Below are positions 5,304 through 64,000 of a DNA stretch of 64,000 nt, in pieces. Within the stretch, counting starts at the first letter, position 1. The number at the start of each line of letters is the position of its first letter. This DNA comes from Ascaphus truei (taxonomy: Eukaryota > Chordata > Amphibia > Anura > Ascaphidae), in the NCBI GenBank assembly GCA_036426205.1, contig WSYH01002423.1, forward strand, positions 23,338-87,337. Reading direction: 5' to 3'. Both the position numbers and the translations under genes were made by a program. The notes under the pieces are model-generated. The model was not told the origin of the DNA. It made no database searches and saw nothing but the letters and a program-made list of their open reading frames with translations.

Positions 5304-5573
5304 CTGGCGGTTTTGTATCGTTTTTGCCCGGAGTGTATTGCGTTATTTTCGCGCCCGTGATTTAAGCATTTTATTCCCGCTGTCTGCAATACTGCAATGC
5401 CGTGTAAAAACGCATGCGGGCGTTTGCGAGCTGTTGTCTTTGAAGTCTAATACCTTCGCGGTTCAACACAGTCTGTGCGTGCGCGCGCAGTAATAGTAAA
5501 ATTGCAAATTTAATTTATTTTAAAGTACAGTACTGTACATGCTCGGACACTGTTGGGGTGAAGTGAGGGGGTT

Positions 5574-5712
5574 CCTAACATCTGGGGGCACAATAAATTT
5601 TATTTCTAGGTGCCCTAGAACATAAGTTCCCACGCCAATTGGCCGTGAACTTGACCGAGGCCCTAAGTAGTTCCCACGCCAATTGCGCGAATATAATTTA
5701 AAATAATCAGTC
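5574..5712 (+). repeat. Outer left arm of nested inverted repeat
   Basis: Begins CCTAACATC and carries two copies of TTCCCACGCCAATTG separated by about 40 bases. It is the inverted counterpart of 11210-11333. A near-copy of the segment 5540-5650, including the preceding GCTCGGAC..TTCC block, recurs at 6133-6240, so the left end has been internally duplicated. Confidence 0.8.
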
Positions 5713-7439: not shown

Positions 7440-9123
7440 CTACTTTCCTGATGCTTGCCCATTACGCGCGATGACAATGGGCAACACAGTGGCAATATGG
7501 TCTATATATTTATTGCAGCGTTCCACGGTGAGTACATCATTCCAAAAACTCATTATGCCTTTCAACAACTCATCCTTTTTGGAGGGTTTCGCCACTTTCC
7601 GGATATGGTCCTTCAGCTGATGCCAGACCATTTCGATCGGATTGAAGTCTGGCAATCTGTGATTGGAAAGAAAGGACAATTGGTTTAAGAGCTAAAAACA
7701 GTGGGGAACAAAAATGGGACATGGTCTACTGCACTTACTCCGCTGGCGTCTTCACCCAGTTGATGCCGCGCTCAAGGATATGCGCCGTTGACGCGGTGTG
7801 CTTGGGATCGTTCTCCTGGTAGAAGCGGTGACCATCGGGGAACTCGCGTGTGATGTATTGCACTATCTCGGGCACAATGTTGTCTTGGAAGAAAGCTTTA
7901 TTCATGATTCCTATAGCAAGAAAAGAAAAGTGCTCAAAAAACTGCACAATAGTACTGTACAGTGCATACGGTAAGGCAACACTAGTCAAGTACAGTGCAT
8001 TAGGCGACATTATATTTGATAAATTTTACCTACAAAGATGACAATGCATCCCGGTCCATGCCTAGAGATGGCACCCCACACATGCAGCTTCACAGGGTGT
8101 TTTGGCCGCGGCTTCAAAGATATGCGGCCTTTTTTGTGGAATGCAAATCTTGCAAATCTCTCCAGCGACACAGTAGACTCATCTGTGAAGATGCAATCCT
8201 GGAAAGTCTCCCCACTTTCAATCCATGCCTGGGCCTGGAGCACTCTTTTGATTTTGTTTGCGTCCCGTATCATGGGGTACGCTCTGTAATGACAAGGAAA
8301 AAAAAATTAGCGGCACAGTGCAGTACAGTTTGCTAAACAACACTTTTAACTCCTGTACTGTCCAGTACTAACCTCACACATCCATATTTCCATCCAATGC
8401 TGCGTCTCATCTTCTTTATGCTGCTCTCGGATACAGTCAGATTCTGCTTTTCCTGCAGAGTGTTTTTAACCCTTAATGCACTCCTCTCATCATTCTCCTC
8501 ACTTATTTTGTCCACCAGAAGAGTTGTCTCCCTACAATGTAAAGAAAATATATTGTTTTATTAATATGAAGCAATATAAAATGTATATACTGTAAATATA
8601 ATGTTGTAATATTAAATAAATTGAAATATATATAAAATATAGACTGCTGTACTATAAATATAAATATACACAATAAATATACTGTTGTAATATAAATATA
8701 AATATACATCCTATATATACCGTTGTAAGATAAATTGAAATATACAAAAAATGTATACTGCTGTACTATAACTATAAATAGACAAACTATGTTGTAATAT
8801 AAATCAACAGAAATAACAACAGTATTACAATAGATACAGAACTGTACTGTAGATGTACTGTACTGTATGAACAGTACAGTACGTACAGTACAGTTTTCTA
8901 TATTTTTTTTTGTTAAGTTTTATAATTATACTTACGCGTTAGTAACCCTTGGTGCCTTTTTCCGGTCTCTGTTTTTTCCGTATGCATGATAGCACACGGT
9001 GTTTGATGGCACAATGGGGCCAGAAGTAGCTAACCAGCATTGGATAGCAGCAATTCGGTGTCCGCTCGTGTACATCTCCTTAATTCGCATGCTGAGATCC
9101 TTTGAAATCTTTTTAACAGGCAT
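7440..9123 (-). CDS. Tc1/mariner-like transposase, five exons
   Basis: Cut-and-paste transposase of the Tc1 group. Exons by splice signals: 9123-8936, 8531-8373, 8283-8030, 7910-7739, 7656-7440. Each intron has GT and AG, and the exon lengths (188, 159, 254, 172, 217) sum to 990 bases, an open frame of 329 codons plus stop. The start is the ATG of [11 protein letters not shown]; an upstream in-frame ATG exists but lacks family similarity. Residues 1-115 form paired-like helix-turn-helix DNA-binding domains. The catalytic domain has D150 (FTDEST), [12 protein letters not shown] at 183-194, QENDPKHTA at 232-240 and E266 ([15 protein letters not shown]). The usual second catalytic Asp, just before Asn in the DND motif, is Glu233 here, so activity is doubtful. 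The tail ([18 protein letters not shown]) matches the Tc1 group with TPAES before PDxNPIE. It faces away from the BEN-like gene across a short shared promoter region. Confidence 0.88.
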
Positions 9124-9376
9124 TGCTGCGAGTACAAAGAAATACAAACACAAGAATGTGTATTCGATGTTTAGTCGATGTGTATTCTATGTGCAATCAA
9201 TACACAAAATGGATGGTGTATTTATACGGTAATGACTCACATTAGAGTATGCCCACTTTCAACACCTGTACCTGGTCGCCATGCATAAAAGGTCACACAC
9301 TTTGCATAGGCCACCACTCCATGATCTTTATCTGAACTTGCCCTTGTCCAGATACTGCTTTGTGCCACCTGCTTCC
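9124..9376. promoter_or_regulatory. Probable bidirectional promoter between transposase and BEN-like gene
   Basis: About 250 bases separate the transposase start (9123, minus) from the likely start of the BEN-like gene (9377, plus). A TATTTATA-like element lies near 9219-9226. Head-to-head placement suggests shared control. No transcription start can be read from sequence alone. Confidence 0.4.
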
Positions 9377-10767
9377 ATGGAGCATCCCCGGTTCTATGGA
9401 CGCAAGAACCCACTCACCTCTGCCGTGCCTGTCATGCTGAAAAAGCGAAAGGCGGTTGCCGTTTCCACGCCAAGGGCAAAGCGACAGGCTAAGGCCAATA
9501 AAGAAAACCTTCTGCTGACCCCAAAGGTTAAGGGTTTTCTTAGACGTAAGCCTCATTATGTGAAGAAGATATACGGCGATGTACTCTCGACACAAAACAA
9601 TTGGCAGCCAACCCATCGAATCCGCAGACCACTTCCTCCCATATGCTTCGACGACTCTGCTGTAGCTGTCCCGGAAAACCTGTCTTCTCCACCCCCATCT
9701 TCTCCGGTTCCATCTGACGACGCTGCCGCCTCTGAAATCCACGGGTCACTGTCTCCTCTGCTCTTGGACGACTCTGCTTCTCGGCTGGAAATCCAAAGGT
9801 CACTTTCTCCATCCCTCTTCGACGAAGCTGCCGCTTCTCCTCTACCGGGTATCCACAGGTCACCTCCTCCACTCTCCATCGATGCCGCTTCTGTCCATGG
9901 AACCCCCATCTCATCCTACGTTGCACCCATCTCCCCAGATGTCCAGACGCCATGCACAAGAAGCAGCTCGTTAGACCGGATGCTGAATGGGATAAGTGTG
10001 GATCTCCCCGGGAATTCTATTGTGCTGGCAAAGATAGATCTGCTTCTGGAGACAATGCTAAATGTGGAGCAACGGATGCTACAAATGGAACAATAGATGG
10101 ATTGACGGATGGAGAAGATAGAGGCTGACATAGCGGGCATATATTATTTGCTCGGTGCTAATGCCCCTGTTTCCCCGCCGCCAGAGCAGGGGGCGACATG
10201 GATGTGATGAATGAGACCTTCGACCTCCTTCCATCAGCAAGCGCACCCCCTCCACCAGAAGATGTAGTGTACATGTATGCCGTTGAGGAGGACATGACAA
10301 CCCCGTCAAGACCACACCAGGAGACAACACGGCGACCATGACCGGAGGAAAGCTTCCTCCCAGACAACCTACCATTGCCCGTCGCCTCAAGTACACCCAC
10401 TCCCAAAAGACCTACACCCGCTCGCATCGAAACGGTGCCCGACATCACCCTGTGCGATCTGCCACCGGCGCTCAGGGAGAATTATAGGGTGAAGAGTGCT
10501 GGTGTACCCCACAAGTATGCCTTGATCATTTTTCAGCACCATGTTCACTACTCGTTGTACTGCGTGTGGGTGTTCAAAGTGAACTACGATGGGAATCGCG
10601 CAAAAAAGGCCCTTCCTGTCAATTTATGGAAAAACATTGTGGAAGAAATGCGGCGCTTTTATCCAGTTACAGATCCTGTAATGAAAGGCGTTAGAGACTG
10701 CCTTAATGGCGTTTTGCGCCATGCAAGGAATCGGCCATGGACGGACAATGTGGAGGACTTTCAGTGA
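9281..10767 (+). pseudogene. Coiled-coil/BEN-domain-like accessory protein of the composite transposon
   Basis: Two coding blocks. Block 1 (9281 or, more likely, ATG 9377 to 10096) encodes a basic N-terminus with KKRKAVAVSTPRAKR and KVKGFLRRK, probable nuclear localisation, a Pro/Ser/Asp-rich middle, and a leucine-rich coiled coil at the C-terminus (LAKIDLLLETMLNVEQRMLQ). Block 2 is open from 10162 (ATG 10198) to 10767 apart from one TGA at 10339, and ends in a domain resembling BEN, a DNA- and protein-binding fold: KKALPVNLWKNIVEEM followed by a DPVMKGVRDCLNGVLRHAR helix. A CCGCCAG acceptor-like site near 10182 could join the blocks, but I cannot identify the donor. AATAAA lies at 10851. The TGA could be a decayed CGA. 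The function in transposition is unknown; BEN proteins in animals often regulate chromatin. Confidence 0.55.
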
Positions 10768-10989
10768 GACCATACTGTTGTGCTGAACTGTATTGTACTG
10801 TACATGTTTTGCCCTACTGTTACTTAAAATGCTTCAACATTGTATTTGTAAATAAATGTTTTTGAACTTACTGCACCAATAAAAGAACATGTTGATTTGT
10901 CTTACTGTACTGTACATTGTTTCCATTTGCTCCTTTGATAGTACTGTATAACAAAATACAGTGTTTGTAGAATGTAGAGGCTTGCTGCA

Positions 10990-11209
10990 CTGTTTATTTA
11001 CTGCCTGACCGTAAAGCCGCAAGCTCGGCAACATTGTAAAAAAAGAGCAATGAGCACGCAATTGGCGTGGGAACTAGGTCAATTGGCGTGGGAACTTCTG
11101 TTCTAGGGCACCTAGAGATAAAGGGCTCAGATTTGGTCACCATGTAGTCCTAGTTGCGGCAGGATTGCATGGCAAATTGCGACCCTCTCGTGGCAACAGG
11201 TTATTTTAA
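10990..11209 (-). repeat. Inner right arm of nested inverted repeat
   Basis: The inverted counterpart of 5921-5990 (the TTGCCACGAGA..TCTGAGCCC block) and of 6168-6310 (GTGCCCTAG, CCCACGCCAATTG, GCTCATTGCTCT, TTGCCGAGCTTGCGG). Three further copies of the CCCACGCCAATTG motif occur here, suggesting repeated subterminal binding sites for a transposase or accessory protein. Confidence 0.75.
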
Positions 11210-11333
11210 ATTATATTCGTGCAATTGGCGTGGGAACTACTTAGGGCCTCGGTCAAGTTCACGGCCAATTGGCGTGGGAACTTCTGTTCTAAGGCACCTA
11301 GAGATAAAATTATTTTTGCCCATTGATGTTAGG
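11210..11333 (-). repeat. Outer right arm of nested inverted repeat
   Basis: Read on the minus strand this runs CCTAACATC, a GGTGCC/TCTAG block, two TTCCCACGCCAATTG repeats and the AATATAATTTAAAATAA spacer, matching the left arm at 5574-5712 in order. If TA is taken as the target duplication, the inner element would start at ACATC on both sides. Confidence 0.8.
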
Positions 11334-11399
11334 CACTGTATACCACTGTACAGTATACTGTAGAAGACACATAATGAAACGATACTGAACATGTAGAAT

Positions 11400-12188
11400 A
11401 AATGCATAGATTTATTTTTTCGGGTTTATTACACAGTATACTGTACGGCCGGAAAACATCAGCATACAGTACAATATTATCCATCGAAATCCCCCCATTA
11501 GCCGTTTTCTTATCTGAGGAAAAACAAAAAGAAATGTTTTAATGTACAGTTATGGTCAGCCTCTAAAAAAGTACCCAGCCAGTCCCACCAAAATAATACA
11601 GCAACTCACCATAGAATTTCCCATTCAGCTGGCGCGGGCGCCGGTCCACTGCCAGTCCAGCTTTCTTGATCATCCACGTCGATAGTCTGCAGCGGGACTA
11701 GTCCACCTGTAGTCAGCAGGTGAGGCTGGAAATCGCTTAGGTACATGCAAGCTTCATCAAAACTGCACACGAAATCCGGCTCAGGCTCAGGGTTGTCACT
11801 GACAGTGGGACAGTCATTGGAAGCCGGTGCTGGTGCTGGTGCATTGCTTGGCAGCGACAGTCGCTTCTTAGTTGGTTTTAACACGACCCTTTGCCTTTTG
11901 CCGCCTCCATGATCATAGATACGAGAAAAATCCGGTGATACACACCAATACCCTCCAACAAATTGGGGCTCAATACGGTGAAAACAGGGATCACTACAAA
12001 ACCTTTTCCTTACTGCACGCTTCCACGTATGAGGAGTTGGCGAAAATTTGTAAAAGTCATAGTTTTCGATAAAATACTGATAAATTTTAGCAACTGTTGC
12101 CATCTTATCATCTGTTGCATTAATCGCGGCACATATCAAATACGCGTAACTTCTGTTTTTGGAAAGCGGGCTGCACTTGAACACTCAT
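11400..12188 (-). pseudogene. Forkhead (winged-helix) domain gene, diverged copy in the composite transposon
   Basis: Predicted sequence-specific DNA-binding protein. The forkhead signature is clear: RSYAYLICAAINAT, IYQYFIENYDFYKF, WKRAVRKRFCSDPCFHRI, GGYWCVS. The domain is followed by a basic nuclear-localisation-like stretch (GGGKRQRVVLKPTKKR), a Pro/Ala linker and an acidic tail with FDEACMYLSDF. The conserved ATG is at 12188, but compared with the copies at 52522 and 62799 five bases are missing about 40 bases downstream, breaking the frame; the rest stays open to 11606. A 96-base intron (11609-11514, GT..AG) follows; splicing moves the stop to a TGA just past the junction. AATAAA signals lie near 11440. 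Upstream sequence to 12615 matches the left end of the family MITEs. The 5 bp deletion makes this copy probably inactive. Confidence 0.85.
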
Positions 12189-12615
12189 GGCGGGTGGGTC
12201 TCTGGAGAATACTGTAACTGAAACTGGTCTTTGTCTTTCTTTAATATGTATGAAAAGCCTACTGTAAATTGATACATTTTTGCAACCTTCAGTCGCAAGG
12301 CCAAGGCCAAGGCCAAGTTACAATAGCACACTGTGGTACAGTATCTTTTTTAAATGAAACACCTGCAAGCTGACACATTACTGATTCGGCGCATTACAAT
12401 TCATGAATTTCTGCCATCTGGCGGACACACGAAGCATTGCAGCCTATTTAAATCCGAACCATTATCAATAAACCCATCAACCGTGCGTCAGCCGGGCATG
12501 ACCCCTGGCTGGGAACGCAAAATGAACGCGGCATGCTCCAGGTGAACAGCGTGGCATTCCAGGAACAAGCCAGGTAAAAGCCTGTGATTTGTTAGAATAA
12601 AAGCTGCCGCAGCAG

Positions 12616-18489: not shown

Positions 18490-21400
18490 TCACAAAAAAA
18501 AGCAAAAAATTCAGGGAAATAATAGAAGAATTCTCCCTGGTCGATGTGTGGAGAGCTCAGCACCAGGGTCAAAGGGATTACACCTTCTTCATTGCCCCTC
18601 ATCAGTCCTACTCGATGTTAGACTACTTTCTGTGTACCAACAACATACTCCAGGATTCCTCCCACTCCAATATCGGCCCAATTACATGGTCTGACCACGC
18701 CCCAGTGGAACTCACCCTCACCCTTCCCTTTGTCAAAAACAATCCCTACAAATGGAAGTTGAATGATTCCCTACTCAACTGCCCAGAGACAGAGACAAAT
18801 ATAAGATGCAAACTCTCCTCCTTTTTCCAGATAAACGCAGGTACGGTCTCGGCCCCGGCTATGCTTTGGGAGGCACACAAGGCCTCAATTAGAGGAGAAT
18901 TAATCTCGATATCGGCCTATAAGAAAAAACAAAAAGCTAAACTCCAAACTGAACTAATAGATAAAATCAAACACCTAGAGCAGCAACACAAAACAACAGC
19001 ATCCAAAAAAATACTAAAGCAATTAAACCAAACGCGAGCAGCTCTCAAACAAACACAATTAGAGGAAGTAGAAAGGGCCCTAAGATGGACAAAACAAAAA
19101 TTATTTGATAAAGGAAACAAAGCCGATAAGCTCTTAGCCTCGAAACTTAGAGGCATACTGCTGCGACACACTTTATTAGAGCAAATACCCAGTATGTACC
19201 TGGCAGATACCTGGAATGCGCCGCTCCTCACCTCTGACAAGCCCCGTTGCATTTGCCTTCCCAGCCTGGGTTCATGCCTGGCTGATGGGCGGCTGATCTG
19301 TTAAATGATAATGATTAGGATTTAATAGGCTGCAATGCTTCGCGTGTCTACCAGATGGCATAAATTCATGAATTGTAATGCAGTATATATATATATACTG
19401 TGCAGTATTGGAGCCACGGGAATAAAATGCTTCAATCCCTGCTGGGAAAATACCTCAATGCACTCGGGCAGAAAACAGTCACAAACCTCAATACACCCGG
19501 GTATACCCGAATTCGTGGGACTAGCCGAGCTCGAATAAAGTGTGTCGCCAGTGTACGGGTAAAGTCACAAAATATCCAAAATCCGCACAAAATCAGGGAA
19601 AATCTCATATGACAAAAAAGAAATAGCACACGAATTTGCTGACTACTACTCTCAACTGTATAACCTACATCCTCTGGGCCAAAATCCGACCCCCTTAGAT
19701 ACAATCTCAAAATACCTGGGGGAGTGCTCCCTCCCCTCCCTTTCACAGGCCGAACTAGATAAACTAAATAAAGACATTACCCTAGAAGAACTAACCGAAG
19801 CCATTAGCTCCCTCAAACCGGCAAAAACTCCGGGCCCGGACGGATTTTCTAACACTTACTATGACATTCATGCTTACCCTGTCCCCTTACTTGCTTGACA
19901 TGTTCAACTCTTTTTTACAAGGAGAGCCAATCCCCGCTACCATCACTGCAGCAAACTTAGCCATTATCCACAAGGAGGGTCGAGACCCGCTCCTTTGTGG
20001 CAACTACAGGCCAATATCCCTACTTAACTCAGATCTCAAAATTTACAGCAAGATACTAGCAAACAGGCTCAACCCAATTCTCCCCAGACTCATTAATACA
20101 GATCAAGTAGGTTTTGTGTCAGGAATACAGGCCTCTGACAATACACGCAAAATAGTGGATATCATCGACCACGTGCATCTCACAGGAACCAATGCAATCA
20201 ATTGATCCTGAGCATCGACGGGCGAAAAAGCGTTCGACAGGATCAGATGGTCCTTCCTAGACCAAACAAGCTGAAGTTTGGTTTTAGTGGTCCCTATTTA
20301 GAGGGTGTTAGAGCCCTCTACCAAAAACCCACAGCATATGTAAAATTTCAGGAGGACTATCAGACCCAATTACAATAGAAATGGGACCAGACAGGGCTGC
20401 CCGCTATCCCCACTCCTATTTGCCCTAACAATTGAACCATTGGCAGCCAAAATTAGACAAGAAAAGGGATCAAGGGGATTTCGATCTCCACAAAGGAATA
20501 CAAAATTTCCCTATTGCGGACGATGTGATCCTGACCCGCTGACCCCCACATCTCCCTCCCGAACCTACAAAAGGTACTCCACCAATTTGGAACAGTCTCT
20601 GACTATAAAATAAATATAGACAAGTCAGAAGCCACTTAACATATCCCTCCCAAACACAACATGGAAGCTTTTGCAGTCCAATTATAAATACAAGTGGAGC
20701 ACCACATACATCAAATACCTAGGTATAAGAATTTCGAGCTCCCATGGATCCCTCTATCAACACAACTACCCCCCACTATTTGATCAAATTAAAAAAGACT
20801 TAGAGTCGTGGAAAAAACATCAAATATCATGGTTCGGGAGAATAATCTCCCTCAAAATGAACATCCTACCTCGGCTGTTGTACTATTTCCAAACCCTCCC
20901 GTAGTCGTCCCACTAACAGCCATGAAAAATGTACAGGCCCAAATGTTCCAATTTATCTGGAATGACAAGAGATCGAGGGTCCCCAGATCGGTAATGTTAT
21001 CAGCCAAACTAAGAGGCGGTCTGGGGGTCCCCGATGTGGTCAGGTACTACTTCGCAGCCCAGCTAAAGCAAGCCGTAGTTTGAAATTGCGACCAGGCAGC
21101 GGTCCGCTGGCTCGAGATAGAAACACATTACGCAGCCCCGCTACCACTTCAGCTACTGCTGTGGTCCCAAGGAGAAAAAGAAGGAGGATCAAGGAGGTTT
21201 GATCTAGGAGCAATGAGATGCACGTGGGACTCGTGGCTGAAAAGCAAAGGGAAGTATGGCCTGCTAAACACCCCCTCACAAATCACCCCGATCTTTGGGA
21301 ACCCGAACTTCCCGCCCGGGTGCTCCAAAAAGCAATTTGCCCAATTTCAGGGGCTTGGAATAAGGCTGGTTGCAGACTTGCTGAAAAATGGAGAGATTCT

Positions 21401-32663: not shown

Positions 32664-33060
32664 CTGCACCGACACACTTTATTCGAGCAAATACCCAGTA
32701 TGTACCTGGCAGATACCTGGAATGCGCCACTCCTCACCTCTGACAAGCCCCGTTGTGTTTGCCTTCCCAGCCTGGGTTCATGCCTGGCTGATGGGCGGCT
32801 GATCTGTTAAATGATAATGATTAGGATTTAATAGGCTGCAATGCTTCGCGTGTCTACCAGATGGCATAAATTCATGAATTGTAATGCAGTATATATATAT
32901 ATACTGTGCAGTATTGCAGCCAGCGGGAATAAAATGCTTCAATCCCTGCCTGGAAAATACCTCAATGCACTCGGGCAGAAAACAGTCACAAACCTCAATA
33001 CACCCGGGTATACCCGAATTCGTGGGACTAGCCGAGCTCGAATAAAGTGTGTCGCCAGTG
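32664..33060 (+). mobile_element. Forkhead-transposon-family MITE, copy 2
   Basis: 397 bases, flanked by TA on both sides (TGTA on both if four bases are counted). Left end CTGCACCGACACAC, as in the forkhead copies at 52111 and 62388; right end GTGTGTCGCCAGTG. More than 95 percent alike to the copies at 19158 and 53776 by eye. Confidence 0.9.
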
Positions 33061-51830: not shown

Positions 51831-52110
51831 ATATTTGCATTAAAGGATCAATCCAGGCAATGTCCTACATGTGTTTCTTTTTTAATAAATCAGTTCTGTA
51901 GAATTAGATAATAGTTATTCCTTTTTTTTATTTTAAATTCAACTCTTATTGTCTTAATATACTGAGCATTTTTTTTATAGCAGGATTTAGCACCCCTCTT
52001 CAGCAGTGCAAGTTCTTTGTAACACTTTCCTGCTTGTGATCATTTGTTGCAAATATTTTCAGCAGTTTGAGCTACAAACGGTAACAATAGGTAATGTTAC
52101 CTTAGTAATA

Positions 52111-53458
52111 CTGCACCGACACACTTTATTCGAGCAAATGCCTGGTTTGTACCTGGCAGAAACCTGGAATCCGCCGCTGCTCACCTCTTGCATGCTTCGT
52201 TGCGTTTGCCTTCCCAGCCACGGTTCATGCCTGGCTGACGGGGGCCTGATCTGTTAAATGATAATGAGAATGATTTACTAGGCTGCGATGTTTCGATTGT
52301 CCACCAGATGGCATAAACTCATGACTTAAGTAATGTGTGGCCTTTGCAAGTTGTTTCGTTTCCAAAAAAAAGTTACTTTATCCCAGTACAGTATGCTATT
52401 GTGTAACTTGTCCTTGAGACTGAAGGAAGAGTTGCAAAAAATGTATCAATTTAGGCTTTACATACAGTAATGTATTAAATAAAGACAAAGATCATTTTCA
52501 CTTACACTATTCTACAGAGACATGAGTGTTCAAGTGGAGCCCGTGTTCCAAAAACCTGACAGAAGTTATGCTTATTTGATATGGGCCGCTATAAATGCAA
52601 CAGAGGATAAGATGGCAACAGTTGTTCAAATTTATCAGTATTTTATCGAAAATTATGACTTTTACAGATTTTCGCCAACTCCTCATTTGTGGAAGCATGC
52701 AATAAGGAAAAGGTTATGTAGTGACCCCTGTTTTCACCGTATTGAGCCCCAATTTGTTGGAGGGTATTGGTGTGTGTCACAGGGTTTTTCCCGTATCTAT
52801 GATAATGGAGGCGGCAAAAGGCGAAGGGTCGTGTTAAAACGAAATAAGAAGCGACAGTCCCTGCCAAGCAATGCGCCAGAACCAGAACCAGAACCAGCAG
52901 CAGCACCAGCTTATCATCATGGTCCCGCCGTCGGTGACAACTCTGAGATGGATTTCGCAGCCAGTTTTGATGAAGCTTGCATGTACCTAAGCGATTTCCC
53001 GCTGACTACAGGTGGGCTAGTCCCTCTGCAAAATGATGAAAGCTGGACTGGAAGTGGGCCGGCGCCAGCGCAAGCTGAATGGGAAATTTAGTAATACTGT
53101 ACAGTATGGTGAGTACTGTATTTTTGCCGTATTATTTTGGTGGGGCTGGCTGGGAACTTCTTTAGGGGGCTGACCATTACTGTACATTAAAACTTTTCAT
53201 TTTGTTTTTCCTCAGAAAAGAAAACGGCTAATGGGGGGATTTCGATGGATTATATTGTACTGTATGCTGATGTTTTCCGGCCATACAGTATACTGTGTAA
53301 TAAACCCGAATAAATAAAACTATGCATTTATTCTACAGTACATGTTCAGTAAATTACTGCACATACTGGGGGCGAGATGTGTTTGCAGCAGAGAGAGATT
53401 TAATAATATTGTACAGTGAGCAGGGGGTTCCCTGAGCCAGAAATTAATGCTCAGGGAA
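52111..53458 (+). mobile_element. Forkhead transposon copy A, right side truncated
   Basis: Starts CTGCACCGACACACTTTATT next to TA. The 1348 bases are matched by 62388-63735 with the same length and only two differences that I can see (near 52325 and 53220). It contains the forkhead gene, its 3' intron and polyadenylation signals. After about 53345 it runs into a GAGCAGGGGGTTCCCTGAG module from the Harbinger-like repeats, then breaks at 53458. No transposase is present in this copy. Confidence 0.85.
52522..53318 (+). CDS. Forkhead (winged-helix) domain protein, copy A
   Basis: An intact 189-codon frame, 52522-53091, starting MSVQVEPVF; the ATG is conserved in all three copies. Residues about 12-86 form a forkhead domain: KPDRSYAYLIWAAINAT (helix 1), IYQYFIENYDFYRF (helix 2), WKHAIRKRLCSDPCFHRI (recognition helix 3 and following strand), GGYWCVS (wing). 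The usual NSIRHNLSLN core of helix 3 is HAIRKRLCSD, so the base-contact Asn and His are changed while Ile-Arg and Leu stay. Then come a basic stretch (GGGKRRRVVLKRNKKR) likely for nuclear import, a Glu-Pro linker and an acidic segment (FDEACMYLSDF) that could activate transcription. A 107-base intron (53109-53215, GT..AG) lies just after the stop, followed by AATAAA at 53299 and 53309. Predicted nuclear DNA-binding factor; target unknown. Confidence 0.88.
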
Positions 53459-53775
53459 GGGGGGTGAGTGCGCGAGGGGGGCCTGGCTACACGCGAGGGG
53501 GGACCTGGCTACATCGTGCAAGCAGAGGAGCTCTATGCAGCCACCTATAGCTCTGCCCAGTCATCTCTACACATTTATTTTCCTATATCTTTCTCCCACT
53601 GAGTCATATACTGTATGAGTGCTTTTCTTTCTTATCTAAGGAACTCAGAACAAAATATATTTGAAATCATCCCTTTCTGATGTGTTTGTATTGTGCACAT
53701 CTCTTCAAATATAGTTGGATGTGTATTCCTTCATTGGAAATATTTGGAAATAACAATATGCCTAATTTGTGTGTA
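53459..53775. other. Nothing recognised
   Basis: Begins with G-rich CGCGAGGGGGGCCTGGCTAC units, then unique-looking sequence. Confidence 0.45.
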
Positions 53776-54174
53776 CTGCTGCGACACACTTTATTCGAGC
53801 AAATACCCAGTATGTACCTGGCAGATACCTGGAATGCGCCGCTCCTCACCTCTGACAAGCCCCGTTGCATTTGCCTTCCCAGCCTGGGTTCATGCCTGGC
53901 TGATGGGCGGCTGATCTGTTAAATGATAATGATTAGGATTTAATAGGCTGCAATGCTTCGCGTGTCTACCAGATGGCATAAATTCATGAATTGTAATGCA
54001 GTATATATATATATATACTGTGCAGTATTGCAGCCAGCGGGAATAAAATGCTTCAATCCCTGCCTGGAAAATAACTCAATGCACTCGGGCAGAAAACAGT
54101 CACAAACCTCAATACACCCGGGTATACCCGAATTCGTGGGACTAGCCGAGCTCGAATAAAGTGTGTCGCCAGTG
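53776..54174 (+). mobile_element. Forkhead-transposon-family MITE, copy 3
   Basis: 399 bases flanked by TA (TGTA on both sides). Ends CTGCTGCGACACAC and GTGTGTCGCCAGTG. Nearly identical to copies 1 and 2, with a slightly longer internal TA run (54002-54018). Confidence 0.92.
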
Positions 54175-55244
54175 TATCTGAAATATTCTGAAGATGGAAT
54201 ATTGTATTTTTCTTGTATTTCTTCAAATGTATATAGTTTCCACAGAAACATAGCATCTTTAATTCTAATTATACCTCTTGTAATCCAGATATTGTTTCTT
54301 CCTGGTACAGTATACATCCTGGGGGGAATTCTTCATACCTCCACAAGGGAGTCATGAGCAAGGGTAGTCCCTTTAATCCCTTTTATTTTTCTCCCGTATA
54401 TCACAAACATTTAGAGTGAATTTAATAACCCGGTGGTTATATACTTCATTAGGTCTATTTTTTGGGGGGGGGAATTCACAATAGTGAATCTATATTCTGT
54501 ACAGGGATCTTTACTCATACATCTATGGTCTTTGACAAGCTCATTGTACTTCTCAGAATGTAAGCCTTTTTTTTTTCATCAGGGAGTCCCATCTAATTCA
54601 TTATCGATTTCTGACGCACTTGCGTCAAAATATATTGTATTTATACTAGCAATAAAAGCTGCCACATATTTATTTTTTACTAAGCAATGCTATTCCACAA
54701 GACACCTCCCGGAGACTGAGGACAACTCATGAACCATTTGTTCAAACGGTTGTGGAATAGCACTGCTTAGTAATTACAACAGATATCCTAGAATAACTCC
54801 AAGGAGAAACTGGTGCTACCAATTGTACACAGGCATGTACTACATACAGTCCAGAAAAATACTGCACAATAAGAAATAAAGCGCACTTCCGTCCAGTGTC
54901 CCACTAATAAATGAAGAGGCAATGTAGACACCCCACTAGAACCGTGCACCGTGACTATCAACGGGTAGGGGCTAAAATGTGGTAAGGAGGAATATAAAGC
55001 AGTAGTACCGCTGTGTCCCCTGTAAAGGAACAACCCGCTAAGTATACCGCTACCCTCCGCCACTGCCCTCCTACACCCGGTGTCACACACGGACAAGATA
55101 TCCTCACTGCGGAGGTAGGGGAAGGGAAAACTAGAAGAGTAGTCACTCACAGTCTTGACGCGCCGGGTCTCCGGTCAATGATGACGTCAGGTACCTCTGA
55201 ACCGGAAGAGGAATACAGCGTGCTCCAGCCCAGGTATATCGAGC
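54175..55244. other. No recognisable gene
   Basis: A short inverted pair around TATTCCACAA (54690, 54750) and a TGACGTCA site at 55184 are the only structures noticed. Confidence 0.45.
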
Positions 55245-56010
55245 AAAAATAGAGTTGTAAGGCGGTTCATTGCTGCCGCAGGGGTATAAAAGTGGAGGTT
55301 CCACACGCAATAAAATAAAAGGTTAGTTTATTTAGTGCATATACACAAAAAAGTCTGCCACAGAGCGAACTCTGATGCGTTTCGTCCCACCAGGGACTTT
55401 TGTCAATGATTCACATTTAAGTAGATTGTTTTCCCATCAGTTCATAATGTTTTTTATAATGACTTTATTATATTATTACCATGTATGTTATAAGTATGTT
55501 TTATGGAGGAATTAATATAGGATATAAGTGTTACTTGTTCTGCTACTGTGTAACTGGCACTTGTTGTCTATTTTTGCGTATATGTACTACTGGACATGAG
55601 TACCTTCTTTTGTTTTTAATTACATTTTGTGTCGTTTAGTGTCTTGTTGTAACAACTATGTGTCTATGGTGATGTCTGGATAGTGGGCACTGATAGTGTT
55701 CACATAGCGCTATAGCTTCTGATGTTCATTATTGGTTGATTAGCCATCAGGTGTGTTATCACTCACCCTACTTTAATTAACCTATTAACCAATTATACAA
55801 CTGCGCCGCACTATATATACATCACCAGGGGCAGTGCTGGATACTCTTTGACAAAGTCCCTGGTGGGACGAAACGCGTCAGAGTTCGCTCTGTGGCAGAC
55901 TTTTTTGTGTATATGCACTAAATAAAACAACCTTTTATTTTATTGCGTGTGGAACCTCCACTTTTATACCCCTGCGGCAGCAGTGAACCGCCTTACAACT
56001 CTATTTCTGC
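55245..56010. repeat. Inverted pair of Penelope-type terminal repeats with hammerhead-like segments
   Basis: 55245-55425 and 55838-56010 are inverted copies, sharing GTTGTAAGGCGGTTCA, GGGGTATAAAAGTGGAGG, TGCGTGTGGAACC and GTCTGCCACAGAGCGAACTC. Each has GTCCCTGGTGGGACGAAACGC, the stem II-GAAAC part of a hammerhead, preceded by a degenerate TTGACAA. The loop of about 410 bases has no coding region. GGGTATAAAAG is TATA-like. Confidence 0.7.
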
Positions 56011-56596
56011 TTAGTAATTATCAGTCTATATGCTCTTGTTAGATTCAACAACAACTTATTTCTTGCGTGTTATACAAAACTGCATTCACTGACAAACTAA
56101 AAAAAAAAAACTGAAAGCAAAGGTTAATCATGTTAATCAGTCAGCCAGACTAATACAACCTAACATTATTAATCGGATAACACATGGTACTGCCCGGTTC
56201 CCATTGCCCATAAATCTGATGTATATAGAAAATCATGCAATGTGAAGGATTAGAAAAAGCTAATTAGTTCAGTTGTGTTACAATTACTTTTACTTTGTAG
56301 ATTGCCCTGATGTTCGTAGACTGCTTACCTCTTGACAATAATAATCGCTTAATGTGCTACAAGGTTCATGTCAGAAGTTGAATTATAGCAAATTATAATA
56401 ATAATTAAAGGTATTCTGCTGTATTCTGCTATCATATAATATAAAATGATGTTATGCTGAACAGTCTTGCATGCCGCTCCTGTAGGAAATTCCTCAATTT
56501 TTATTTAATTTAAATGGAAAAGAAATCTTAAAATCAATTGTGAAAGTAGAGCTACAGCAAACTTGAAGTATGATGAAATTAAAATAATGATGATTA

Positions 56597-56639
<43 letters not shown>

Positions 56640-56829
56640 TTTACATCTTTTGCTGGTAACTCATTGGCACCTAAGTATTAGGATAAGAACTTCTTGCCAT
56701 TCTTCTTCTCTTCGGCACAAGTGAAAAAGAGAGGAGTGGTGATTATACATCAATAGGCGAATATTTTTTGCCCCAAAAGAAACACAGATGAATCGCGAGG
56801 ACAGATTCCTCACAGTAGTGGGGATCCTC
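56011..56829. other. AT-rich sequence with (AT)n near 56609
   Basis: No gene recognised. The AT microsatellite runs 56609-56640. Confidence 0.6.
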
Positions 56830-57644
56830 CATTGGAAGGCTTTGCAATGTCAAATGTCTACGCCTCGAACAAGTGTAGCTCTAATTTTTTTAATAGGTTT
56901 GTTCAAATCCTGGGGAGCGTCACACAAGGCCAGATAATTCTGGGAGGAGACCGCAACATGACCCTCAATCCCTCCTTGCAACGCTCCTCCCCTTCCTGGT
57001 TCCTCCCCTAAACAGAGTAAACATTCAAACATCAAAGCCCTACACAGGGGCCTGCCATCTTTCCATCTTGTCGACACTTGGCGTGAATTAAACCCAAAGA
57101 GAAAGACGTCACATTTTTCTCCACGCCACTCCAGTCATATGACCGTATCGACATATATTGTTTTAAGCGCCAACCTAATTCCAACGTCAAAGAGTCAGAA
57201 ATACATAGTATAAATTGGTCAGACCTTACCCAAGTCAAATCATCTCTACAGAACCTAGATATCAGATTTCCCAAATCACATTGGAAACATAATGATTCCC
57301 TAATAAAAATCCCGGAGATTCACCAAGAAATTGAGATTATTTTTCCAAACCAATGTAGGGAGTGTATCCTCGCTGTCAACCCTCTGGGAAGCATGTAAGG
57401 CCAGAAGACTGATGAGCATAGCAGTAAATAGAAAAAAACTAGAAGGGAAAAAATGTACTCCATGCAAGCTGACGTTGACACCATATCGAATCTACACAGA
57501 GACCGAAGAGGCAACATTAAGGAGACAAAGGGAGACAAGGGCAGAGTTGTATATAAACTCACATCCCTCGCAGAACAATCCATGAGGTGGATGAAAAGGA
57601 AGATATTTGAAAAGGCTAATAAACCTGACTCCATACTGTCAGAC
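56830..57644 (+). pseudogene. L1-clade LINE, endonuclease end and linker, 5' piece
   Basis: Frames encode FVQILGSVTQGQIILGGDRN (endonuclease, GGDFN-like), FHLVDTWRELNPKRK (typical L1 endonuclease C-part) and VGSVSSLSTLWEACKARRLM (linker), with stops between. It is interrupted by LTR-like sequence from about 57645; reverse transcriptase continues at 58985. Confidence 0.8.
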
Positions 57645-58205
57645 TTGTCCAGGTGCCTTGGAAAATGCTAGACCTGTTCTCTTGAATATGCATTCAGGAT
57701 GCATTACCAAAAGTGTCCACCAGTCTGGAAACATTAAAAGACTACATTTCCCAGATGTCTTGCAGACTAGGACTCACTCACTCCCTGTTCTGAGACCTAT
57801 ATAAATCCGGGAAGTTGCCCCCCACATGGCGTTGCAACTCTGCTCCCAGCTTAGTTCACGTCTACTCCTGTAGGGCTAAGTTCTCTGCCTGTTTCTCCTT
57901 GGTTTTGACCTCAAACTTCCTACTGGACTTTGCCTTTGCCTATCCCTCTAGTACCTTCCTGCTTAATTGTATATGACCTCGGAACTGTACAGGACTTTGC
58001 CTAACCCTCAAGTAGCTTGCTGCTACACTGTGTGTGACCCTGGTTTTCCTGTGACTCTGCTCGGCCTTGTCCTTTCCTCTGGATTTTCCTTCCTGAGTAT
58101 CTATCATCCTCAGTGTTCAGAGTTTACAACGCCATATATTTTACTCTTCCGAGGGTTAATAGTTCATCAAAAGTTTTTCATGAACTGGCAGATGCAGTAG
58201 ACGCC
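57645..58205 (+). mobile_element. LTR-like sequence inserted in L1
   Basis: Starts near TGTCAGACTTGTCCAGG. A TATATAAATCCGGG box near 57798 is followed by a CT-rich stretch (CTGCTCCC, GTTTTGACCTC, CTTTGCCTTTGCC) of the kind seen downstream of Gypsy-type LTR promoters. I could not find a matching end or duplication, so the border is open. Confidence 0.4.
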
Positions 58206-58515
58206 TTGCTATTGTCAGGATCCCACTTTAGAGACAAGAGTATCATTCACTGATCCCCCTGCAGTGCCTGTTATTGCTTACTCTGGGATTCCCATTTCAA
58301 AGACAAGTTTAAGTATCACTGATTTTTCTACAGTGTCTGATGTACTTATTGCTGACGCTAAGATTCCCACATCAAAGACTAGTTTTCCTCTCACTGATTT
58401 CCCCACAGTACCTTATATAACCCTTGGTTATTCTGGGACTCCCACTCCAAAGACATGTTTATGTCTCGCTGATTCTTCTGCAGTGTTTGGAGGTATCACA
58501 AGGCAACATAAAATA
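58206..58515 (+). repeat. About 75-bp tandem repeat with an open frame
   Basis: Four imperfect units begin GGATCCCACTTT, GGATTCCCATTTC, AGATTCCCACATC and GGACTCCCACTCC. A frame through the last three encodes a repeated SGIPISKTSLSITDFSTV pattern. Whether the frame is used is unknown; it may simply be a minisatellite whose unit length is a multiple of three. Confidence 0.6.
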
Positions 58516-58769
58516 TAGGGTACACCATCCCTTTAAGCCAAAACATAAAGCGTAAAGACAAAGCCTACTCCATCTTGGAGACTTATTAGACTGAAAGGGC
58601 CCTAACTACCTGACTGGCTGAATAGTTTAGTTACCAGTCTGAAACACAAAAGAGTATCAGGGCGCAATATTCTGTATGTATTGTGTATAGTATTAGCCAC
58701 AGTGCAATAACCCTACACTACAGACACGCCTGAAGAAACCAGAGTATGCCGGACCAGCATACTAAGATA

Positions 58770-58940
58770 AGATATTGATATACAGAAGCTTGGTGTCAGG
58801 TGTCGGCATGGCAACGCTGCGTCATTTGACGTCGCAGTGTCATGTGATGTCATGGTTGCCACGGTAACGTGACGTCAAATGACGCCACGGGTCACGTAAC
58901 GTCACTCGACCCCGCTGCATCATATGACGCCGTGCGAGGT
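58770..58940. promoter_or_regulatory. Cluster of TGACGTC/TGACGCC sites
   Basis: At least six CRE/ATF-like sites in about 130 bases, partly arranged as an inverted repeat (GCGTCATTTGACGTC and GACGTCAAATGACGCC), in a CpG-rich island within AT-rich surroundings. Confidence 0.5.
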
Positions 58941-58984
58941 AAGGTGGGGAGCGCTCTGAGGAGAGCAGGCAGGGGGGGGGAGGA

Positions 58985-61340
58985 AGTTTGTGCGCCCCTG
59001 CAGTAAGGCGTATTGTTGATTTGATAGCCAAGGCAAAAGAAGATAACACCCCCTTGATGCTGCTCAGCCTCGATGCCGAAAATGATTTTGACAGAGTTGA
59101 TTGGTCTTATATGCAGGGAATCCTGACAGTCTGGTTTCTGAGATGCTTTTTAAGAGCAGTCCTCTACCTTTACACCACCCCCACAGCCAGAGTAATACGC
59201 CAGGGATTCCTATCAGACCAAATTCTGATTAAAAGTGACACATAACAGGGGTGCCCGCTATCCTCATTCCTGTTTCCTTATGCATGGAGCCCTTGACTGT
59301 GCACATTAGGGATAACTTTAATATCTCTGTAACTTGTTGGGAACAAGGTCTTTAAATTATCCTTCTTTGATGAAGATGTCATGCTTTCCCTGTCCCGCCC
59401 ACAGACCTCCCTCCCAAACCATTTCAATTAACTCTCATGGTTCAATGCTCTTTCAGGTTTTAAGATTAATAACAGTAAGTCTGAAGCTCTTATTATTAAT
59501 CTGAAAAGAGAGGTGTCAAATTGTTTGAGCTGAACTTTGACTTCAAATGGCATTCCAGACCATCAAGTACCAAGGTATCTTCATGATCACAGATTATCAC
59601 AATCTTTACAAAGATAATTATCCCACCCTCTTGAGGACTCTCCAAGACGATCTATGGATCAGGTCTAGCTTCAACATTTCCTGGATAGGGAGAATACAGT
59701 CGGTAAAGATGAACCTTCTCCCATGTTTTCTTTATCCTTTTTCAAACACTGCCCATTCCAATTAATAATATAGTCATTCACAATCTTCAATCGCTGATTA
59801 CCAAATTCGGATGGAACAAAAAGGCCTAGAATATGCAGACAAATCCTAACCCTGACTCACAAGAGCTGGCGGGCATACACTATCATGCCTAATCTCCTAA
59901 TGTATTACATGGCCGCCCAAGGCCAATTGGTGGTCTCTGTAATTCATCCAATAGGGTTGGATAGGCTTATATGGCTCCCTACGTCGGTCCTTATACTAAA
60001 GCAGGGTCTATTACCCACAATTCTACACTCTCTCAAATTATGGGGAAAACTCAGATTTAAATAGAAATGTATGTCTATGAATTCATTCTAGATAACCCAG
60101 ACTTTGAGCCAGGCCTGATGAAAAGCGCATTCCTGAATTGAGAGTTGGCCAGTATAACAAGGTTGAGGGACCTGAGTTAAGGTCTCAGGGCTAGGCAGTT
60201 TCACTACTTCTCTAAAGAAAATGGCTTGCCTAACATACAGTTATTCCACTTTCTGCAACTCAGAGCTTACTATTACAAGGTTAAACCAACTTCCCCCCTA
60301 CTTGGTTTTGAGATAAACTTAATCTGAGTTCACAGCTCTACGGCTATTTAGCTTTTCTGGAAGGGGACACCCAGGGAGACCTGGGGTTTATAAGGCAATG
60401 GGAGAGAGAGTTGGGTGAGGAACTAGAGGGGAGGGCTGGGAGGAAATATTTGAGGGGGTGGCAACAAGCTGCATCTGCACAACCATAAAAGAGAATGCAT
60501 ACAAGCTCATGTTGAGGTGGTACAAAACTCCATTATATGGTCCAAATATGTCCCTGGCTACTTACCCCTGAACCCTAAGGGTTGTGGGAAGGGAGCTTCC
60601 TTTATCCAGATGTTGTTGACCTGTCCTGTTGTAACCCACCACTGGAAAAGGTACAGACCTGGGAACAACGGATACTGGACATGGACCTCCTACTTGACCC
60701 CTGGCTATTTCTCTTGAATAGGCCATTCCATGGCTTGTCCAGAGCTGACAAACTACTCACCCACATAGTCACAGCAATCAAATGTGAGCTGACAGTCCTC
60801 TGGAAAAAGAGTAAAATCCATCCCTGCATAAGCCATAAATTGTTGTTTATTTGCCAGGCAAAGAAGTTGACGAGACTCCTGAATGATTCATGTTATAAAT
60901 TCCAGGGAGTCTGATGGCTCTGGCTAACCTTTGGAGGTATCGCTGTTATTGACTCCACCACAGTGCTTCACTAAGCTTCTACCCACATGAGCCCCTCTCT
61001 TGGGTCCTGGGTCAGTCCACCCAAGAACAGTCCCCCATGCCCCCCCTCCCTCTAATAACTTTGTCTTCCCTTCAAGGTGATGCTCCAGAGGTTAATTTCG
61101 TGTCACCTATATTTACTGGTTGTTCCCGCTCCATATGGCTCATTAATTAAAACTGTGGCCGGTTTAGGGGTATTAATGGATGTAAATTTCTTACGACTAT
61201 CTGATGCAATTATGTATATATTGTACATATAACTGTACTAAAAATGTATGTGCCTTCCCCCCTCCCCTTTCTTTCCTGTATCCACCCGCCCTCAATTTTG
61301 TGTTTATTCCACATGAAAACCTCAATAAAAGTGAGAAAAG
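58985..61340 (+). pseudogene. L1-clade LINE, reverse transcriptase and 3' end, 3' piece
   Basis: Begins AVRRIVDLIAKAKEDNTPL and LLSLDAENDFDRVDWSYM (palm region). Later SFNISWIGRIQSVKMNLLP marks the C-terminal domain, and a 3' part ends around AATAAAAGTGAG near 61323. The early fingers region is missing, so the junction with 57644 includes a deletion. Many stops and shifts; inactive. Confidence 0.8.
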
Positions 61341-62124
61341 TCCCTTCCTTAAGAAGTCACCCCTACTACATACTGTAAATGTCATTGATTGTTTTGATAA
61401 AAATGCCCTCGGGAGAAGGGCAGTTCCATGACTATCCTAACAGGTCAAAAACTTACACTCTTGAAAAAATGCACTGTAAACAGTTGTAAAGTTTTTTGCT
61501 TCTCTCCTGCTAAGGTTGAAAAGCTGGATTCCTGAAAGTTTAGGAGCTGTACCAAAAGAAACAGCATGATGCAAAGTCGTTTGTCAAGGAGTAAATATAA
61601 GGTTTGGCTAATGAATGTGAACAGCAGAGGTTACCAACACGGCTCCTGTTTTCTAAGAAGGATTGTTATATCTCTGGGGAGTTCTACATAATTATCCCCT
61701 GAAAATAAATTCAAATATACTGGTAGTACAATGATTGCCAAAAAAAGACACTTTAATAGCATGTAAGGAAGGAACATTGATAATTACAGCAATTAGAATG
61801 GTTTTTTTCTGCAAGACTATGTTAGGAACTCATGATTTTACATGTATATTACATTGATTTGCTACAATATTTTCTTGTATTTCCGAAGGCTTTTTTTAAA
61901 CTGCACGAGGTAACTCACTAGGAATGGGCGAAACTGTCAAAATATGTTCCCCCGGAATTCCGTGGATCATTTTGATAAAATCCATTTTGCACACTAAAAT
62001 ACGCATGCGGATTGTGGAGAGAAGAGAGAGAGGCGAGAGAGGAGAGAGAGAAGAGAGGAGAGAGACCTTTCCAGAGTCTGGCACTCTGGCAGACGGCAGA
62101 GTGAATATTTTTGTACAACCCAGA
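61341..62124. other. No recognisable gene; GA repeat at 62010-62065
   Basis: Unassigned sequence with a purine-rich simple repeat. It may include the 5' part of the LTR-like sequence that ends at 62361. Confidence 0.45.
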
Positions 62125-62361
62125 TCTGGACTGAGCCCCTGATAAAAGGTACCTCTTTGGACTTTGGGTCAGAGGCTGGTAAGAAGCCTAGCCACCAGAT
62201 AGGGACTGGGAGAGTGAGTAAGCCCTTACACAGGGATAGACTGTTTATTTGTGTGCTGCCATAAAGATGTATTGTTTGAAGCTACGGGCTGAATAAAAGC
62301 CAAGGTTTATTTTCCCCAAACAGGTCTCCCTGGTTATACCTCTGTACTCGTCTCCTACAGA
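62125..62361 (+). repeat. 3' part of an LTR related to 47134-47605
   Basis: Shares, inverted, GTACCTCTTTGGACTTTGGGTC-like, TAGGGACTGGGAG, AATAAAAGCCAAGGTTTATT and ACTCGTCTCCTACA with the probable solo LTR at 47 kb. It ends 26 bases before forkhead copy B. Confidence 0.6.
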
Positions 62362-62387
62362 ATCTTATTCTCATAATCTTTAAGATA

Positions 62388-63735
62388 CTGCACCGACACA
62401 CTTTATTCGAGCAAATGCCTGGTTTGTACCTGGCAGAAACCTGGAATCCGCCGCTGCTCACCTCTTGCATGCTTCGTTGCGTTTGCCTTCCCAGCCACGG
62501 TTCATGCCTGGCTGACGGGGGCCTGATCTGTTAAATGATAATGAGAATGATTTACTAGGCTGCGATGTTTCGATTGTCCACCAGATGGCATAAACTCATG
62601 ATTTAAGTAATGTGTGGCCTTTGCAAGTTGTTTCGTTTCCAAAAAAAAGTTACTTTATCCCAGTACAGTATGCTATTGTGTAACTTGTCCTTGAGACTGA
62701 AGGAAGAGTTGCAAAAAATGTATCAATTTAGGCTTTACATACAGTAATGTATTAAATAAAGACAAAGATCATTTTCACTTACACTATTCTACAGAGACAT
62801 GAGTGTTCAAGTGGAGCCCGTGTTCCAAAAACCTGACAGAAGTTATGCTTATTTGATATGGGCCGCTATAAATGCAACAGAGGATAAGATGGCAACAGTT
62901 GTTCAAATTTATCAGTATTTTATCGAAAATTATGACTTTTACAGATTTTCGCCAACTCCTCATTTGTGGAAGCATGCAATAAGGAAAAGGTTATGTAGTG
63001 ACCCCTGTTTTCACCGTATTGAGCCCCAATTTGTTGGAGGGTATTGGTGTGTGTCACAGGGTTTTTCCCGTATCTATGATAATGGAGGCGGCAAAAGGCG
63101 AAGGGTCGTGTTAAAACGAAATAAGAAGCGACAGTCCCTGCCAAGCAATGCGCCAGAACCAGAACCAGAACCAGCAGCAGCACCAGCTTATCATCATGGT
63201 CCCGCCGTCGGTGACAACTCTGAGATGGATTTCGCAGCCAGTTTTGATGAAGCTTGCATGTACCTAAGCGATTTCCCGCTGACTACAGGTGGGCTAGTCC
63301 CTCTGCAAAATGATGAAAGCTGGACTGGAAGTGGGCCGGCGCCAGCGCAAGCTGAATGGGAAATTTAGTAATACTGTACAGTATGGTGAGTACTGTATTT
63401 TTGCCGTATTATTTTGGTGGGGCTGGCTGGGAACTTCTTTAGGGGGCTGACCATTACTGTACATTAAAACTTTTCATTTTGTTTTTCCTCAGAAAAAAAA
63501 AACGGCTAATGGGGGGATTTCGATGGATTATATTGTACTGTATGCTGATGTTTTCCGGCCATACAGTATACTGTGTAATAAACCCGAATAAATAAAACTA
63601 TGCATTTATTCTACAGTACATGTTCAGTAAATTACTGCACATACTGGGGGCGAGATGTGTTTGCAGCAGAGAGAGATTTAATAATATTGTACAGTGAGCA
63701 GGGGGTTCCCTGAGCCAGAAATTAATGCTCAGGGA
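62388..63735 (+). mobile_element. Forkhead transposon copy B
   Basis: Same left end and the same 1348 bases as copy A, flanked by TA at 62386. After 63735 it continues into the second half of a GCAGGGGGTTCC hairpin and then the AGCGGATAGCCGCT and AGCAGTTAATACCGCT hairpins of the Harbinger-like family. Its right end is beyond the window or lost. Confidence 0.85.
62799..63595 (+). CDS. Forkhead (winged-helix) domain protein, copy B
   Basis: The 189-codon frame 62799-63368 encodes the same protein as copy A, residue for residue. The only difference near the gene is in the 3' exon, where an A-run after the acceptor (63493) replaces AAAAGAAAA, which does not touch the coding frame. The 3' intron is 63386-63492. 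Near-identity with copy A despite unrelated left flanks indicates very recent movement or gene conversion. Domains and residue changes are as in copy A. Confidence 0.88.
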
Positions 63736-64000
63736 ACCCCCCCCCCCCTGCTCCTGATCAATATTATTAAAAATACGGAAAATGCTGCGTCATTACCATA
63801 GCGGATAGCCGCTAAGGCAATGAAGGGGTTAACCCACCGTGCCCGCTTTATTGTGTGTAGTGGGGATGGGTGAGGGGGGTATTTGGCCCTTGGTGTGAGT
63901 TTAGGACTTGCGGGAGGGGGGGGGGTTGCGGGTGCACTTAACCCCTTCACGATCGTAGCAGTTAATACCGCTACGGTCATGAAGGGGTTAAGCCCTCCCG
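63736..64000. repeat. Hairpin modules of the Harbinger-like composites
   Basis: Contains the second arm of the GCAGGGGGTTCCCTGAGC hairpin, ATAGCGGATAGCCGCT (63799), a G/T-rich block and GTAGCAGTTAATACCGCTAC (63955), in the same order as the left arm of the 9.2 kb element. No gene. Confidence 0.7.

Follow-up and report, generated by a model that had tools for sequence, protein, structure and literature searches.

A 64,000-nucleotide stretch of the genome of the frog Ascaphus truei (contig WSYH01002423.1, positions 23,338 to 87,337; hereafter the window) contains three genes, A, B and C, for winged-helix proteins of the forkhead (FOX) type. They belong to a forkhead-bearing transposon family that has been copied to well over 100 places in this genome, and we conclude that the forkhead is very probably a resident gene of a Tc1/mariner-type transposon, where it accompanies a DDE transposase and a second gene. 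Our favoured reading adds that its product would serve the element as a DNA-binding helper. Taken jointly, the two statements receive a moderate probability of about 0.5: half of the four fetched forkhead–transposase pairs fall short of clean single elements, and the helper function is inferential.

The initial annotation of this DNA had recognized a forkhead gene, and comparison with the Pfam Forkhead model (PF00250, cut-off 27) supports this assignment. The protein of B and C scored 56.9 bits (E=2.3e-15) and that of A, encoded on the minus strand, 51.4 bits (E=1.2e-13), both above the curated score and thus within the forkhead family by profile. B and C encode the same 189-residue protein (100% identity) and lie 10.3 kb apart; their DNA is 99.8% identical over 1352 bp, with flanks that differ, and A is 79% identical to both. 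The ATG at 12188 that had been taken as the start of copy A proved untenable, since many stops interrupt that frame; the forkhead domain of A is open in the frame from 12184, over 192 residues. On our reading of the alignments, the frame is broken because about 5 bp were lost near codon 12 relative to B. Three AATAAA signals are found 0.2 kb behind the open reading frame (ORF) of B, and no right terminus of B or C was found within the window. A long palindrome (TTCCCTGAGC...GCTCAGGGAA) was observed near the 3' end of the part common to B and C (53400-53458, 63680-63770), before the point at which they diverge.

All three genes lie inside a common terminus that adjoins TA. The left end of B consists of a TA (52109-52110) followed by CTGCACCGACACAC, C begins with the same sequence behind the TA at 62386-62387, and A, read on the minus strand, begins with TA and CTGCTGCGGCAGCTTTTATTC. 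The forkhead ATG lies about 0.4 kb inside the scanned terminus motif: 405 bp in B, 405 bp in C and 422 bp in A. The three copies had been described as equidistant from a terminus adjoining TA, which holds for B and C; in A the distance is longer and the terminus has diverged. A 19-bp sequence from this terminus, CGACACACTTTATTCGAGC, occurs eight times in the window at no more than three mismatches, compared with none in 100 shuffles, and the diverged terminus of A is outside these eight. As the initial annotation had also suggested, miniature inverted-repeat transposable elements (MITEs) share the terminus: three in the window have CGACACACTTTATTCGAGC as an inverted repeat at their two ends and are flanked by TA left and right. 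When the flanks of the first MITE are joined through a single TA, they form one continuous frame resembling a long interspersed nuclear element (LINE), which undergoes a single-frame shift some 18 codons further on; the LINE-like label is our own reading, made without a family search. TA target duplications flank both sides of the three MITEs, of three complete forkhead elements and of locus L040, described below. By the same unaided reading, a LINE-like ORF at 18546-19304 is split by the first MITE.

We analysed the distribution of these sequences in the genome assembly (2.82 Gb, 19,235 contigs), each search scoring the best 150 candidates at most. The B-type protein matched all 150 scored places at 95% identity or above (the best 150 of 16,937 first-look candidates); as read from the table, 30 of these scored as high as the query itself and 146 were free of stops, a share that is favoured by ranking on score. 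A 59-bp stretch of the B-type left terminus has 111 exact occurrences in the genome, and its reversed control has none. Comparison of 100 listed termini from these 111 with the first 103 of the 150 B-type matches placed a same-strand forkhead match 404-433 bp downstream of 80 of the 100, and at exactly 405 bp in 70. Among the copies compared, the terminus motif precedes the ATG by 403-475 bp in 32 of 35 rows, representing 33 distinct copies, in a scan that left out L037 and L029 (the window's own copy A); L010 and L028 have no terminus motif before the ATG, and only a shorter part is visible in L012. The first eight loci all begin at TA plus terminus, each with different flanks. Three short elements, viewed end to end, are complete, with both inverted termini and TA: L004 (2.43 kb), L008 (1.65 kb) and L014 (2.1 kb). 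A further locus, L019, has two termini about 6.5 kb apart. A. truei is among the frog genomes analysed in PMC12822217.

Beyond its forkhead, copy A extends into an element of 7.3 kb that matches the MITE arms at its ends. Read from the left terminus, the forkhead is followed by a second gene, which lies on the opposite strand, and then by the DDE transposase and the right terminus (Table 1). The transposase matches DDE_3 (E=1.5e-14) and Sleeping Beauty (SB100X; 1.7e-13), with a weak match to HTH_Tnp_Tc3_2 (E=0.027) under the Pfam cut-off, and it has relatives in gar, croaker, zebrafish and pearl oyster. Judged by its sequence, the element belongs to the Tc1/mariner superfamily. The catalytic site reads DNDPKH in all four of the other loci that contain the exon (L032, L033, L036 and L040), with 32 residues to the following Glu in those loci; the window copy A and its duplicate L029 read ENDPKH. 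Within the paper library searched, no publication combines DD32E with transposase. The second gene, of about 500 amino acids in the general layout, is a single open frame of up to 534 amino acids in many other copies, and has no Pfam match, its C-terminal part included; these copies were scanned and aligned with L009 and L035 left out. Structure prediction of the C-terminal part gave a predicted local distance difference test score (pLDDT) of 44, too poor for use. We had considered a BEN domain at the end of this gene, an idea that was dropped for want of a Pfam match. One relative of the transposase, from croaker, bears the name BESS domain-containing protein, which hints that the fish relatives may have extra domains.

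Table 1. Coordinates of the transposon-related features in the window
Feature	Position	Strand	Remarks
Element A, three genes, Tc1/mariner-type, decayed	5302..12615	-	right tip approximate, TA there not preserved
Forkhead gene of A	11606..12188	-	frame broken near codon 12
Second gene of A	9281..10767	+	split: ORFs 9281-10096 and 10375-10767; no Pfam match
Transposase gene of A, 329 aa, DDE_3	7440..9123	-	exons 9123-8936, 8531-8373, 8283-8030, 7910-7739, 7656-7440
Internal inverted repeats of A, left arm	10985..11336	.	
Internal inverted repeats of A, right arm	5571..6309	.	
Forkhead element B	52111..53458	+	left terminus to last base common to other copies
Forkhead ORF of B, 189 aa	52522..53091	+	Pfam match
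Forkhead element C	62388..64000	+	homology to copy L002 up to window end
Forkhead ORF of C	62799..63368	+	protein identical to that of B
MITE, same termini	19158..19553	.	TA at 19156-19157 and 19554-19555
MITE, same termini	32664..33060	.	TA-flanked
MITE, same termini	53776..54174	.	TA-flanked

The element shares with known Tc1/mariner members, Sleeping Beauty and its fish relatives among them, a DDE_3-type transposase, the TA target duplication, inverted termini and, in L040, CAGT tips. Usual members of this superfamily have one gene and a length of 1-2 kb, and those of animals are as a rule described as having a single gene. The present elements differ in having two more genes, including the forkhead, a length of 7-9 kb, introns in the transposase and, in copies other than A, the 32-residue spacing between Asp and Glu. 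A literature search under forkhead terms, which did not extend to Repbase or to other frog genomes, found no forkhead-bearing DNA transposon.

The same arrangement recurs elsewhere in the genome. Four loci, L039 to L042, were picked for the closeness of their forkhead and transposase matches, and in all five loci including A the stretch known from behind the forkhead of A starts 209-221 bp after the ORF. The three genes of A recur in L040 and L042, their order and orientation unchanged. The left end of L040 reads TA-CAGTTGCGGC and its right end, in the adjoining stretch L043, CAGTGGCGACC plus TA, 8.9 kb away, with TA-CAGT at both tips; the right end of L042 lies outside the fetched sequence. 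We also compared the positions of the best 150 matches of each gene, accepting pairs within 9 kb, for which 0.14 pairs were expected by chance in each comparison. Forkhead and transposase form 10 pairs, 3-6 kb apart, with the transposase downstream in all of them and on the same strand in nine. Forkhead and second gene form 21 pairs, 18 of them with the second gene downstream on the opposite strand, and second gene and transposase form 18, of which 17 are divergent. The window's own copy contributes one pair to each comparison, and the 10 of the first include L039 and L041.

Several observations weigh against the forkhead being part of one such element. In L039 the forkhead element is less than 4 kb long and the transposase lies past its right arm, and in L041 an arm of the MITE right-hand type stands between the two genes, so that neither locus demonstrates a single element. 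In one of the 10 forkhead–transposase pairs the genes lie on opposite strands, L019 has its decayed interior turned around with respect to A, and in L045 (C8) the 2.5 kb beside a second gene–transposase pair consist of rearranged repeats with no forkhead. None of the fetched copies combines three intact genes: in A the forkhead is broken, the second gene split and a catalytic site altered to QEND; in L040 no long forkhead ORF starts at an ATG and the second gene is interrupted; in L042 the forkhead contains a stop and the transposase is partial. The separate element in L039, the inversion in L019 and the opposite-strand pair, together with the long internal inverted repeats around the transposase part, would fit a composite in which an independent Tc1/mariner element had by chance inserted in a forkhead element. 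Such an origin is very unlikely in our judgement, given the near-constant position of the post-forkhead stretch in five of five loci and the prevailing orientation of the pairs. In the right repeat of L040, moreover, the region 3' of the forkhead is present as an inverted copy, which is hard to reconcile with a start of the repeat at an insertion boundary there. A composite formed long ago and since mobile as one unit may still underlie the element, and would alter little. We regard residence of the forkhead in the transposon as highly probable, and the claim of the initial annotation, that a mobile element carries a forkhead gene, holds.

That annotation had also named, as one outcome that would speak against it, a host FOX gene multiplied by segmental duplication with no link to the terminal repeats. 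The short distance between B and C and their near identity are what such a duplication would produce, and we consider it to have a negligible chance of being correct. The flanks differ right up to the TA, the short copies have two termini and the layout with the transposase is repeated, all of which contradict duplication of a host gene, and the 111 termini are scattered. The host-like FOX genes, in addition, are separate: in a genome search with the Pfam forkhead profile, 21 of the best 150 among 12,894 candidates scored at least 107.8 bits and form a distinct, host-FOX-like group. The other 129 scored 73-94 bits, above the 57 bits of the protein of B and C; this listing gives no copy count.

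Four of these 129 were fetched. L046, L047 and L049, which share 86-94% identity across some 1.2 kb, represent a second type of forkhead, F2. A third type, F3, is represented by L048, observed as a single copy, for which FOXL2 is the closest match at 78 bits. F2, which is repetitive, and F3 are both more FOX-like than the gene of the window, F1, in the same genome. The forkhead domain of F1 is 30-38% identical to those of FOXL2, FOXA2 and FOXC2, and differs from them by two extra residues ahead of the recognition helix and by a wing 1 that is four residues shorter, with GG-W. The insertion and the shortened GG-W wing are common to F1, F2 and F3, as judged against these three FOX domains only. 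The recognition helix reads WKHAIRKRL in place of the WQNSIRHxL of FOX proteins. Forkhead recognition helices usually contact DNA through N, R and H; here R is kept, N is replaced by H and H by K, which suggests a changed DNA target. The domain is followed by a basic stretch and an acidic tail. Beyond these differences in the protein, the gene is set apart from the FOX factors by being mobile and multicopy. Structure prediction of the forkhead gave a mean pLDDT of 38, too poor for use. No FOX class could be assigned, a small tree joining F1 and F2 at a support of 0.50. All relatives in the protein database are from A. truei (three matches with a single query, and five of 7997 scored candidates with an alignment); candidates must share five-residue words with the query, and the result therefore tells little about origin or about other frogs. 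We consider it likely that the element captured a FOX gene.

We measured selection on the forkhead through the ratio of non-synonymous to synonymous substitution (dN/dS) in four B-type and three A-type copies. The ratio was 0.33-0.49 in all 12 between-group pairs, with dS of 0.18-0.24; these pairs have branches in common and are not independent. Within the B-type it ranged from 0.27 to 1.1 on few changes, and within the A-type from 0.40 to 0.49. The synonymous excess over the whole gene was significant for B against L038 (p=3e-4) and against L042 (p=8e-4), with p=0.02 for the domain. These comparisons of coding sequences show purifying selection on the forkhead between the subfamilies, which argues for some function. 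The 214-234 bp behind the forkhead ORF (53092-53337 in the window, and the same region in L038 to L042) are 93-97% identical between the subfamilies and the left arms only 70-74%, a contrast that we can explain only through exchange or constraint.

A function in the sense of benefit to the element is not what every observation favours. Elements without a forkhead have spread too, as the MITEs demonstrate, so that the gene is not needed in cis; 35 of the best 150 places matched by the A-like protein hold a stop (counted by eye), and the B-type copies are so young and nearly identical that their open frames tell little. A captured FOX gene that hitch-hikes without benefit to the element would account for all of this. 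We hold it to be rather unlikely in view of the between-group ratios and the synonymous excess, read with the shared branches in mind.

The reading that we favour by a small margin over an even chance is that the forkhead product is a DNA-binding helper encoded by the element. In this scheme the transposase would move the full element, and the forkhead-only derivatives and MITEs would move by transposase supplied in trans, as their shared tips suggest. The forkhead protein, whose gene stands directly behind the left arm, would bind element DNA at the ends, the subterminal repeats or the promoter, and once bound would keep the element expressed or accessible, or guide the transposase. The initial annotation had likewise named binding of the element's ends, control of its promoter and opening of chromatin as possible uses. 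It would thereby act like the Myb-like protein of Harbinger or the VANC protein of VANDAL elements, without kinship to either. In PMC9179366, the Myb-like protein is reported to aid nuclear import and to bind the ends of the element; the likeness would lie in a DNA-binding helper gene beside a transposase. Domain and transposase are unrelated to those found here, where the helper role is putative. VANC, as reported in PMC5735166, strips DNA methylation from its own elements, and the parallel would be a protein that acts on the DNA of the element encoding it; these are plant elements with another protein.

Binding sites for such a helper are difficult to point to. A 14-bp subterminal motif, AATTGGCGTGGGAA, occurs seven times in the internal inverted repeats of A and seven times in L040; its absence from B-type elements, where the MITE examined lacks it too, counts against the helper reading. 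Canonical FOX sites exceeded base shuffles in the longer elements, among them A (23 against 11.4) and L040 (50 against 14.5), with 2 against 2.6 in the 1.65-kb element; AT-rich repeats weaken this test, and the enrichment, which is not convincing and to that extent counts against a helper, was not used as evidence. Another target would be host genes, on which the protein might act, for example by favouring germline conditions for spread of the element. The FOX-type domain, together with the basic stretch and acidic tail, would suit that role, with which purifying selection is compatible, and the altered recognition helix argues against plain mimicry of a host FOX factor; we think action on host genes distinctly improbable.

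A broader scenario, put forward tentatively and at odds well short of even, is that a FOX factor was acquired in the distant past by a Tc1/mariner lineage, in which it became a transposon-encoded protein that binds DNA, and perhaps opens chromatin, through a rewired recognition helix. Several mobile forkhead families would have arisen from it since, to the point that mobile forkheads far outnumber the host FOX genes in this one frog genome. A Tc1/mariner transposon that keeps a selected FOX factor would offer a direct test of whether DNA transposons of vertebrates rely on captured transcription factors to remain expressed or accessible. It would also supply many natural variants of the FOX domain with altered DNA-recognition residues, and might be a source of new host FOX genes.

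Two further features of the window were noted. A retroviral env-like ORF at 4895-5365 (Pfam TLV_coat, E=3.7e-10) ends approximately at the right tip of element A. On the minus strand at 27187-28035, an ORF of 282 amino acids resembles, in our reading without a search, the GIY-YIG endonuclease end of a Penelope-type element.

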